Notes under the pieces: generated by a model | Told to the model about the DNA's origin: nothing | The model's database searches: none | Seen by the model: the letters and a program-made list of their open reading frames with translations, nothing else | Assembly (NCBI GenBank): GCA_012840075.1 | Contig: DUMC01000032.1 | Span: 62,001 to 126,000, forward strand | Reading direction: 5' to 3' | Origin: Clostridiaceae bacterium | GTDB lineage: Bacteria; Bacillota; Clostridia; Acetivibrionales; DUMC01 | DNA: 64,000 bases | In this document: piece after piece, positions 12,844-16,823 of the stretch | Layout: the number at the start of each line of letters is the position of its first letter | How positions within the stretch are numbered: the first letter of the stretch is position 1 | Program-made: the position numbers and the translations under genes

Positions 12844-12878
12844 TATATTGAGATAGAAATATTTTGGAGGAAAGTATT

Positions 12879-13976
12879 ATGGGTAAAAGTAAAATAAGAC
12901 GTATGTTTGCGGGTGGAAATACATCCGAAGGATTTGTCAGCTATTTTAATTATATATTGGATTTAAAGGAAGCTAAGCAATACTATATTTTAAAAGGCGG
13001 TCCCGGTACAGGCAAATCTACTTTTATGAATTACATCGGTTCCGAAGCTGCTAAAAGAGGTTATGATGTTGAGTATTTTCACTGTTCAAGTGACAGCGAC
13101 AGCCTGGATGGAGTTTCGATTCCCGGTTTAAAAGTTGCAATTGTGGATGGAACTGCTCCTCATGTAATTGATCCAGTATATCCGGGAGTTGTTGAAAAAA
13201 TAATAAATTTAGGAGAATTTTGGGATACCGGTGCTTTGGCCGAACATAAGGATAAATTTCTGCTGTGGAAAAAAGAAATAAAATTTAATTTTGCGAGAGC
13301 ATACAGATACCTAAAGGCAGCAGCTATCCTATACGAAGATATTAAAGAAATTAATATGAAATATATTGATAACATAAAAGTTAAAAAACTAACTTACGGT
13401 TTGATAAAAGAGCTCTTTTCCGACTCAGACGAAATAAGGAACACACAGGAAAAAGAGGGTTTGGAAAGAATGATGTTTGCCAGTGCAATAACACCGGAGG
13501 GTGCAGTACATCACTTGGATTCCGTACTAAACACAAAAAAGATTTATGGGCTAATAGGAGATAAGGGCATGGGAATAAATACTGTTCTTGAAAAAATAAA
13601 AGAGGAGGCAATTAATAGAGGCTACCGTGTTGAATGTTTTTATTGCGCACTATTACCCGATGAGCTTGAACATCTTATTATTCCGGGACTTGATATTTCA
13701 TTGACGACGATAAATAAATATCACAAAACAGAATTAAATGTTCAAAAACATTTCTATTTTGATGAGTTTGTCGATAAAACAGCAAGCAAAGCATATGCCG
13801 ATGTTTTAAACGAAAATAAAGAACAAATTGATAGGTTAATAAAACGAGCTGTTGACTCGATTGTTAACGCGAAAAAATTTCATTTTGAAATGGAAAAATA
13901 TTACGCTCCTGCCATGGATTTTGTTAGGTTAACGGCTGTGAAAGAGGAGGTGAAAAGTAGTATTTTTGCATTGTAA
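12879..13976 (+). CDS. Tandem P-loop ATPase-like protein (PRK06851-type, function unknown)
   Basis: A 365-residue cytoplasmic protein made of two related halves. The first has an intact Walker A, GGPGTGKST (40-48), then EYFHCSSDSDSLDGVSIPGL. The second repeats the layout with GDKGMGINT (227-235), then ECFYCALLPDELEHLIIPGL. In the second half the P-loop Lys is Ile and the following Ser/Thr is Asn, so that site should not bind nucleotide normally. This matches the uncharacterised PRK06851 family of Firmicute ATPases. Start ATG 12879 is supported by GGAGGAAAG. Function unknown. Confidence 0.75.
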   Translation: MGKSKIRRMFAGGNTSEGFVSYFNYILDLKEAKQYYILKGGPGTGKSTFMNYIGSEAAKRGYDVEYFHCSSDSDSLDGVSIPGLKVAIVDGTAPHVIDPVYPGVVEKIINLGEFWDTGALAEHKDKFLLWKKEIKFNFARAYRYLKAAAILYEDIKEINMKYIDNIKVKKLTYGLIKELFSDSDEIRNTQEKEGLERMMFASAITPEGAVHHLDSVLNTKKIYGLIGDKGMGINTVLEKIKEEAINRGYRVECFYCALLPDELEHLIIPGLDISLTTINKYHKTELNVQKHFYFDEFVDKTASKAYADVLNENKEQIDRLIKRAVDSIVNAKKFHFEMEKYYAPAMDFVRLTAVKEEVKSSIFAL

Positions 13977-13983
13977 AACGGTA

Positions 13984-13997
13984 AAATTGTACAATTT
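13984..13997. promoter_or_regulatory. 14-bp perfect palindrome upstream of promoter
   Basis: AAATTGTACAATTT is a perfect dyad that ends 17 bases before the -35 box at 14015. This is a normal place for an operator or activator site of the acyl-CoA synthetase fusion gene. No regulator gene sits next to it. Confidence 0.45.
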
Positions 13998-14014
13998 CAA
14001 TTCAAAAAAACTAA

Positions 14015-14043
14015 TTGACAAACTCGCCAAATTTTGATAACAT
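14015..14043 (+). promoter_or_regulatory. SigA-type promoter for the TIM-barrel/acyl-CoA synthetase gene
   Basis: A perfect -35 box TTGACA (14015-14020), a 17-base spacer and TAACAT (14038-14043) as -10. Transcription would begin near 14050, immediately before the hairpin region, leaving a leader of about 240 bases. Confidence 0.65.
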
Positions 14044-14049
14044 ATATGA

Positions 14050-14121
14050 AAAATCGTCGAAGAGTAGTACTACGGAAGTTTATAACTTTCGTCTCTAGAT
14101 GAAGGAGATGAAGGTTTTTTT
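14050..14121 (+). promoter_or_regulatory. Attenuator-like leader with mutually exclusive hairpins and terminator
   Basis: After the promoter, two stems share bases. A first hairpin pairs ACGGAAGTT (14072-14080) with AACTTTCGT (14084-14092). A second pairs CTTTCGTCTC (14086-14095) with GAGATGAAGG (14105-14114) and is followed by seven T (14115-14121), an intrinsic terminator. Because 14086-14092 belongs to both, forming the first would prevent the terminator. This is the usual antiterminator/terminator layout of a riboswitch or attenuator. I could not match it to a known class; T-box, lysine, SAM and TPP hallmarks are absent. A plain terminator of an unregulated short RNA is the alternative. 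Confidence 0.55.
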
Positions 14122-14291
14122 GTGTTTGGATTTAATTTGATTAAATATCTCGTGTATTAAAGTTTTAGTATAAAAGCTAAAAGCTATTAGTTATTCGGTA
14201 GTGAGTGGTTAATTATAAAGAATATATGAAAAAAAACATGAAGAAAAATATATGAAAGTTTAAAATTTTGTAATATTAGGAGGAATTGACA

Positions 14292-16823
14292 ATGAAGCTT
14301 GCTTTTTCTACCCTTGGTTGTCCGGATTTTAGCTGGCCTGATATTTATTCTATGGCGAAGGATCTTGGCTTTGACGGTATTGAGATTCGCGGACTTGGTG
14401 ACGAAATCTTTGCAGTACGAGCACAACCTTTTACGGAATCGGAGCTTCCTAATACTATTAAAAAGCTCTCTGAACTGAGACTGGAAATTCCATGCCTTTC
14501 TTCAGGTTGCTGTCTTAAATTTGCTGATAAGGAAAAGGAAAACTGCCAGGAGATTAACCAATATATTATGCTAGCTTCAAAACTAGGTACACCTTATATC
14601 CGAATATTGGCTGATTCTGAGCCACAACCTTCGGGAGAGGTGGATGACGGGGTTATTCTTGCAGCTTTACAGAAGTTGATTCCTTTAGCTGAGGAAAAAG
14701 GTGTAACTTTACTTATAGAAACAAATGGTGTGTATACAGATACCGCTCGTCTGTGTAATTTACTTAACCAGGTAGCAAGCGATGCAGTAGCTGCTTTATG
14801 GGATATGCATCATACTTATCGTTTTGGAGGGGAGAAACCTTCAAAGACTGTAGAAAATCTCGGAGCTTACATAAAATATGTCCACATAAAGGATTCTGTA
14901 ATGGAAAACGGCATGGTACGGTATCGTATGATGGGCGAAGGAGATTTGCCTATTGATGATATGATTAAGGCATTAGATTCAATCAATTATGATGGATATA
15001 TATCATTGGAATGGGTTAAACGTTGGGCAACTGATCTTGATGATGCTGGTGTCGTATTTCCCAACTTTGCAAATTATATGCGTCGTTATATTAAAAAGGG
15101 TCCAATCAGAGGCCGCCTTTTTGAAAACAAAACAAAGACCGGGAAATATATATGGGAAAAGGATATTCTAATTGATCTTACTTTTCCGCAAGTGTTGGAT
15201 CGTGTAGTTGAAGAGTTTCCTGATCAATACGCATTCAGATATATTACAACTGATTATACAAGAACTTATTCTGAATTCCGGGACGATGTGGATACATTTG
15301 CACGTGCATTGATAGCCCTTGGTGTTAAACCCGGTGATCACGTAGCAATCTGGGCAACTAATGTTCCACAATGGTTCATTACCTTTTGGGCAACCGTAAA
15401 GATCGGGGCCGTACTTGTTACAGTGAATACCGCATATAAGATTTATGAAGTTGAATACTTGCTTCGTCAATCAGACACGCATACTCTTGTAATGATAGAC
15501 GGTTACAAGGATTCAGATTATATCGGCATAATCAAAGAACTTTGTCCTGAACTGGAAACTGCTGAAGAGGGAAAACCGTTGCATATTAAAAGATTACCTT
15601 TTTTGCGTAACATAATTACTATAGAGTCAAAACTAGAAGGTTGTCTGACCTGGAGCGAGGCTTTGGCGTTGGCAGAGAAGATTCCTCTTGAGGAAGTATA
15701 CAGACGGGCAAGTTCTATAAATAAACACGATGTTTGCAATATACAATATACCTCAGGAACTACAGGTTTTCCAAAAGGTGTAATGCTAACTCATTATAAC
15801 ATAATAAATAACGGAAAATGCATTGGAGATTGTATGGATCTTTCTACAGCAGACAGAATGCTGATACAAGTCCCAATGTTCCATTGCTTTGGCATGGTAC
15901 TGTCTATGACCGCTTGCATGACTCACGGTGCTACAATGTGTCCAATACCGTATTTTTCTCCGAAAGTGGCTCTTGAATGCATTGATCGGGAGAAGATAAC
16001 TGCTTGTAACGGAGTACCCACTATGTTTATTGCAATGCTTGGGCATGAAGATTTTGCAAAGACTGATTTCTCGCACATGAGAACAGGTATTATGGCCGGA
16101 AGTCCATGTCCCGTAAAAGTGATGCAGGATGTAGTAGAAAAAATGAACATGAAGGAAATTACTATAGTATATGGTCAAACCGAAGCTTCACCCGGTTGTA
16201 CGCAGAGCCGTGTTGATGACCCCCTTGAAGTACGTGTCAATACGGTAGGCCGTCCTTTACCAGGAATAGAATGCAAGATTGTTAATCCTAAAACCGGTGA
16301 AGATCTTCCGGATAATGTGGATGGAGAATTTGTGGTTCGCGGCTATAACGTAATGAAAGGTTATTACAAAATGCCTGAAGCAACCGCAGCAGTTATAGAT
16401 AAAGACGGATGGCTTCACACCGGAGACCTGGCAAGACGTGATGAAAACGGAAACTATAAAATTACCGGACGTATAAAGGATATGATAATTCGTGGCGGAG
16501 AAAACATATATCCAAAGGAAATTGAAGACTTTATCTATACCCATCCGAAAGTCAAGGATGTCCAAGTAATCGGTGTACCTGACAAGCATTACGGAGAGGA
16601 AATTATGGCATGCGTTATTCTCAAAGAGGGTGAAAGCATGACTGCCGATGAGCTAAAGGATTATGTTCGCACACATATGGCAAAGCATAAGACACCTAAA
16701 TATGTGGAGTTTTTAACTGAATTTCCGATGAATGCTGCGGGTAAGGTATTGAAATATAAACTGCGGGAGTATGCTATTGATAAGTTGAATTTGCATGAAG
16801 AAAGCCGCATAGTTACAGCTTGA
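14292..16823 (+). CDS. Fusion of xylose-isomerase-like TIM barrel and AMP-dependent acyl-CoA synthetase
   Basis: An 843-residue two-domain protein. Residues about 1-270 are an AP-endonuclease-2/xylose-isomerase-like TIM barrel (MKLAFSTLGCPDFSWPDIY, GFDGIEIRG, LIETNG, WDMHHTYRFGG, YVHIKDS, GYISLEW), as in sugar epimerases and isomerases. Residues about 295-835 are an acyl-adenylate synthetase with YTSGTTGFPKGVM (486-498), YGQTEASP, GWLHTGDLAR, GRIKDMIIRGGENIYP and catalytic K818 in NAAGKVLKYKLRE. The synthetase part resembles medium/long-chain fatty acyl-CoA ligases. AGGAGG precedes ATG 14292. The whole forms one uninterrupted frame, so this is a true fusion. Confidence 0.9.
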   Translation: MKLAFSTLGCPDFSWPDIYSMAKDLGFDGIEIRGLGDEIFAVRAQPFTESELPNTIKKLSELRLEIPCLSSGCCLKFADKEKENCQEINQYIMLASKLGTPYIRILADSEPQPSGEVDDGVILAALQKLIPLAEEKGVTLLIETNGVYTDTARLCNLLNQVASDAVAALWDMHHTYRFGGEKPSKTVENLGAYIKYVHIKDSVMENGMVRYRMMGEGDLPIDDMIKALDSINYDGYISLEWVKRWATDLDDAGVVFPNFANYMRRYIKKGPIRGRLFENKTKTGKYIWEKDILIDLTFPQVLDRVVEEFPDQYAFRYITTDYTRTYSEFRDDVDTFARALIALGVKPGDHVAIWATNVPQWFITFWATVKIGAVLVTVNTAYKIYEVEYLLRQSDTHTLVMIDGYKDSDYIGIIKELCPELETAEEGKPLHIKRLPFLRNIITIESKLEGCLTWSEALALAEKIPLEEVYRRASSINKHDVCNIQYTSGTTGFPKGVMLTHYNIINNGKCIGDCMDLSTADRMLIQVPMFHCFGMVLSMTACMTHGATMCPIPYFSPKVALECIDREKITACNGVPTMFIAMLGHEDFAKTDFSHMRTGIMAGSPCPVKVMQDVVEKMNMKEITIVYGQTEASPGCTQSRVDDPLEVRVNTVGRPLPGIECKIVNPKTGEDLPDNVDGEFVVRGYNVMKGYYKMPEATAAVIDKDGWLHTGDLARRDENGNYKITGRIKDMIIRGGENIYPKEIEDFIYTHPKVKDVQVIGVPDKHYGEEIMACVILKEGESMTADELKDYVRTHMAKHKTPKYVEFLTEFPMNAAGKVLKYKLREYAIDKLNLHEESRIVTA

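Follow-up and report, generated by a model that had tools for sequence, protein, structure and literature searches.

What an attenuator-like leader senses is difficult to judge when it belongs to no recognized RNA class. Such a case is raised by positions 14015-14121 of the window analysed here, a stretch of 64,000 nucleotides from a Clostridiaceae bacterium, in which a promoter is followed directly by two competing hairpins and then by a gene for a TIM-barrel/acyl-CoA ligase fusion protein. The preliminary description of this locus left the leader unassigned and suggested that its signal could be a metabolite of the pathway concerned. Comparison with orthologous loci points instead to the 3' (switch) half of a T-box riboswitch, and we put the probability that the leader is such a remnant at about 0.95. 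One candidate "orphan riboswitch" is thereby removed.

Organization of the leader and the downstream gene

The features of the locus are collected in Table 1. The -10 box of the promoter is preceded by TG and is thus of the extended -10 type. A same-strand gene (12864-13976) stops 38 nt ahead of the promoter, and the gap between them contains a perfect 14-bp palindrome, AAATTGTACAATTT, at 13984-13997, which could be an operator.

Table 1. Coordinates of the leader and the downstream gene in the window.
Feature	Position	Strand	Details and basis
Promoter	14015..14043	+	TTGACA 14015-14020, 17-nt spacer, TAACAT 14038-14043; read directly and by promoter scan
Expected transcription start	14049..14052	+	Inferred from promoter geometry, ~7 nt past the -10 box
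Deletion junction	14054..14060	+	Promoter-side homology (..GAAAAATCG) abuts T-box core (AAGAG..)
Antiterminator helix A1, 5' strand	14062..14064	+	GAG, pairs with CTC 14093-14095; alignment to orthologue cores
T-box bulge	14065..14071	+	7 nt, UAGUACU; sequence and alignment
Antiterminator helix A2	14072..14092	+	ACGGAAGTT 14072-14080 with AACTTTCGT 14084-14092, loop 14081-14083
Intrinsic terminator stem	14084..14116	+	14084-14096 with 14104-14116, 13 pairs, loop 7
Terminator U-run	14115..14121	+	Seven T; sequence
Shine-Dalgarno of downstream gene	14278..14283	+	AGGAGG; sequence
Intact downstream gene	14292..16823	+	843 aa; xylose-isomerase-like TIM barrel PF01261, acyl-CoA ligase PF00501 and PF13193

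The antiterminator has the geometry expected of a T-box, with helix A1, a 7-nt bulge and helix A2, and a terminator with a 13-pair stem and a U-run excludes it. The arm common to both structures is 14084-14092, which makes the two helices mutually exclusive; the overlap was thus recognized correctly in the preliminary description, which had placed it at 14086-14092, and is slightly longer than stated there. By folding, A2 has an energy of -7.6 kcal/mol in the partial transcript and of -8.0 kcal/mol once A1 is added.

Judged by folding and pattern statistics alone, the leader is unremarkable and no better than chance. The folding energy is unexceptional, with a minimum free energy of -18.6 kcal/mol (z -1.58) and 11 of 200 shuffles equally good. 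Pattern counts gave 15 promoter-like sites against 14.1 expected from shuffled sequence and 3 terminator-like sites against 2.5 expected. It is because of its homology to orthologue T-box cores that the leader stands above chance.

The downstream gene had been regarded as an unusual fusion. This view was not upheld, the TIM-barrel/acyl-CoA ligase fusion being widespread in Clostridia: about 80 orthologous loci with 69-85% identity to the gene were fetched, and many genomes within the same order carry full-length copies. In one genome from the same family (G002:C89:6928-9489; L023, L025), two separate adjacent genes, in reversed order, encode ligase and TIM barrel.

Homology to the T-box core

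Twenty-seven orthologues, the window not among them, were used to build a covariance model, R1, for the T-box core (antiterminator/terminator). At 14060-14121 the model scores 58.6 bits (E=2.4e-12), while the next site in the window reaches 12.6 bits. Genome-wide, this is the top match of the model, above the real T-boxes of the genome. Compared without gaps, the segment at 14060 agrees with the orthologue consensus at 34/39 positions, and no other place in the window exceeds 21/39. The 27 sequences were chosen by a pattern fixing GAGUGGNACC, so that the invariance of those columns arises by construction; 13 other T-boxes of the same genome, located by Rfam rather than through this motif, provide the independent check. 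Rfam itself, RF00230 included, gives no meaningful match in the whole window at gathering score, nor in 13950-14310 even at E<=10, which is what a leader lacking stem I would lead one to expect. A mobile repeat was ruled out, as a DNA search of the genome returned no second copy of the leader.

Descent from a T-box is further indicated by the promoter and the gene, which are the same as those of intact T-boxes. Promoters of the TTGACA..TTTGATAACATAT type also front the intact T-boxes of L053, L132, L137, L138 and others, and the shared sequence can be illustrated by TTTGATAACATA in L053, L137, L138 and L132. The promoter of the leader is the ancestral T-box promoter. The attenuator layout noticed earlier, with promoter, antiterminator and competing terminator, is therefore real and inherited, since the same parts occur in orthologue T-boxes. 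Conservation of the stems upstream of homologues, on which the earlier proposal had been made to depend, was indeed found, and the class that could not be named is that of RF00230, present in the orthologue leaders.

Leucine T-boxes upstream of the orthologous genes

Orthologue leaders contain GAGTGGTACCACGGAAG...CTTTCGTCTC, the T-box signature. Of 20 orthologous loci, 13 have RF00230 above gathering score immediately before the gene, and 8 of 10 stand-alone ligases (~62% identical) also have it upstream; in 59 loci the T-box core motif occurs no more than 900 nt ahead of the gene. Most orthologues carry CUC as the specifier, its neighbours being variable; most of these triplets were located by a pattern containing CTC, and the sequences that it missed were read by eye, L140 and L146 having no clear specifier. 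In L081, L082, L085, L087, L091 and L097 the specifier is CUG, a change from CUC within the Leu T-box family. A serine specifier was rejected, as the Ser frame would read UCA, UCG, UCC and UGG, and so was a threonine specifier, since the Thr frame would vary as well; the Leu frame alone stays synonymous (CUC/CUG). Moreover, UGGU fits the ACCA end of tRNA-Leu(GAG) in the genome of the window, whereas the tRNA-Ser genes of the same genome end in GCCA.

The ancestral leader is identified as a class I (transcriptional) T-box specific for Leu, and the intact relatives are read as sensing tRNA-Leu by their specifier. No support was found for a pathway metabolite as the signal, and only ~20 nt separate the expected start from the antiterminator in the window. 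Leucine T-boxes as such seem to be still in use in this genome, where an intact T-box with an apparent CUC specifier precedes an acetolactate synthase gene (L164). In many Clostridia (L052-L148, L152-L160) a Leu T-box is the ancestral leader of this acyl-CoA ligase, T-boxes being found also before stand-alone relatives. Control by leucine tRNA, as it appears in the intact relatives, would offer a clue to the role of this ligase. As a guess, leucine control would suit activation of isovalerate for leucine synthesis.

Loss of the sensor domain

The distance from the -10 box to the core is 16 nt in the window, compared with a median of 252 in 28 close orthologues measured. In intact relatives this interval comprises 200-300 nt, and roughly 230-300 nt in most of the close ones; stem I, then stem II and stem III, fill it. 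Roughly 200-260 nt are thus absent from the window, including all three stems. Stem I with its specifier triplet, the "obligate 5' Stem I domain" of T-box riboswitches (PMC7583486), is absent from the window, as the 16-nt gap leaves no room for it. Stem III with its flanking purine string is absent as well, and the AA before the core is all that remains.

The bulge has also changed. It reads UAGUACU in place of UGGUACC, with G to A at 14066 and C to U at 14071. Pairing of UGGN with the NCCA end of tRNA is not available to UAGU (14065-14068), in which A14066 would stand opposite C75 of the tRNA, and the tRNA-acceptor contact of the window bulge is judged from its sequence to be broken. All 13 other T-boxes of the same genome retain UGG. 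Two of them, before ileS-like and valS-like genes (L166, L171), have the bulge UGGUAAC rather than UGGUACC. The genome has a tRNA-Leu(GAG) gene ending in ACCA, so the old ligand still exists.

The competing helices have fared differently. The terminator pair 14085-14115 is A-U in the window and G-C in 27/27 aligned intact orthologues, both sides having changed; both the antiterminator and the terminator helix survive, this one terminator pair through a compensatory change. The terminator of the window (-15.4 kcal/mol) is the weakest among the close orthologues measured (mean -23.6, sd 3.3), and its lead over the antiterminator (-7.8, orthologue mean -15.4) is likewise the weakest of the set. 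Terminator energy was nevertheless not accepted as proof of weakening, since both the energy and the lead fall inside the range of the other T-boxes of the same genome.

Timing and repeated loss

Among 46 orthologues placed on a protein tree, the window belongs to a set of six supported at 98%. The other five have intact T-boxes, which places the loss of the sensor on the window's own branch. Sensor-less remnants were also found before the same gene in an uncultured Desulfotomaculum MAG (L055:4899-4966) and in Anaerobacterium chartisolvens (L060:4651-4709). These two lie elsewhere on the tree; the best tree has three changes, of which at least two are forced by well-supported branches. Promoter and terminator are kept in all three decayed leaders, and what else persists differs among them: in L055, UGG persists without ACC (UGGCAGU) and the sequence in between is unrelated, while L060 keeps part of stem I and has lost the antiterminator arm. 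The L060 locus also carries a ZMP/ZTP riboswitch (RF01750) on the opposite strand (877-988).

In this one T-box family, then, the sensor half has been lost on no fewer than two or three occasions while promoter and terminator stayed in place. It is conceivable, at a rather low probability, that selection maintains the shortened leaders as minimal attenuators, with read-through fixed or differently triggered. If true, this would be a path by which a riboswitch evolves into a constitutive attenuator.

Alternative explanations

Several other readings of the leader were considered. The hairpin could be a plain terminator for read-through from the upstream gene, with the ligase gene driven by another promoter past 14121. 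The upstream gene is near enough for this, no other terminator was found between it and the promoter, and the upstream gene in L055 is likewise on the same strand and close. Nevertheless, the ancestral promoter is retained, and a promoter scan of 14122-14286 gave no site better than 8 of 12, so that this explanation is considered unlikely. A somewhat smaller chance is given to re-use of the shortened leader as a small attenuator for another signal, such as an elongation factor, temperature or a small RNA. In favour of re-use, neither of the exclusive helices has been lost, a compensatory change has occurred at one pair that does not vary among the aligned orthologues, and two other sensor-less lineages have also kept their terminators; against it, the three decayed leaders have only inherited T-box parts in common, with no conserved new element, and the space ahead of the antiterminator is just ~20 nt.

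That the missing 200-260 nt merely reflect an assembly error is very improbable. The genome is a draft of 193 contigs, but an assembly gap does not explain a bulge mutated at the tRNA contact, and separate losses occurred in two other lineages. Attenuation by a leader peptide has a slighter chance again. The ORF at 14046-14102 (MKNRRRVVLRKFITFVSR, then a stop) covers the antiterminator and the 5' terminator arm, its stop codon falling within the loop of the terminator, and leader peptides have replaced T-boxes elsewhere (PMC2965389). It contains five Arg codons of four kinds and a single Leu codon and has no Shine-Dalgarno sequence, and its ATG lies 3 nt past the -10 box, upstream of the expected transcription start. 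The leader-peptide reading was rejected on this promoter geometry, and the ORF is probably not translated because the expected transcript begins after its ATG. That the leader is an intact riboswitch for a metabolite, of a class not yet known, is scarcely credible and already at odds with the homology: alternative hairpins are present and the substrate of the enzyme is unknown, yet all matched sequence is T-box core, there is no room for an aptamer, and the orthologues sense tRNA-Leu by their specifier.

Proposed history and present behaviour

For the T-box remnant, the following history is proposed. A deletion of roughly 200-260 nt would have fused the promoter to the antiterminator/terminator domain, removing stem I, which carries the Leu specifier, along with stems II and III; the UGGN contact with the tRNA acceptor has decayed as well. 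Uncharged tRNA-Leu would then no longer be able to switch the leader, in keeping with the expectation that a leader without stem I and UGGN shows no tRNA response (PMC7583486). Transcripts starting near 14050 would meet the hairpin, where a fixed balance of antiterminator and terminator may pass a constant fraction, leaving the gene uncoupled from leucine starvation and expressed constitutively at a low level. The leader is thus probably tRNA-blind now, a fixed, leaky attenuator with constant read-through that has lost leucine control. Alternatively, the hairpins could still be doing something regulated, as the compensatory change at 14085-14115 and the integrity of the antiterminator might indicate.

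The locus represents a riboswitch caught in decay, which has lost its decoding domain and carries an altered tRNA contact but still has its promoter and terminator. The case calls for caution as well, as antiterminator/terminator layouts of no known class may be remnants invisible to Rfam.

Comparison with known systems

A search of the available literature found no described T-box on this gene and no naturally stem-I-less T-box. T-boxes have been replaced by other sensors, for instance by hisS leader peptides in Firmicutes (PMC2965389). There, too, an attenuated gene has changed its sensor, whereas the window has no recognisable new sensor. With the sensor-less leaders of L055 and L060 the window shares a retained promoter and terminator and a specifier domain that is lost or broken, the losses being separate. 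Leader and gene are orthologous to the Leu T-boxes of the orthologous gene (L052, L132-L139 and others) and their genes; those leaders are complete, whereas the copy in the window is without the sensor half. The window leader is not to be filed as a working T-box, as stem I and stem III are missing and UGGN is not preserved. Unlike a class I Leu T-box (RF00230), it lacks stem I with the specifier, stem II and stem III, has UAGU for UGGN and goes unseen by Rfam; it resembles one in its promoter, in the arrangement of A1, 7-nt bulge and A2, in the overlapping terminator and in its position before the same gene, and its whole core can be aligned.
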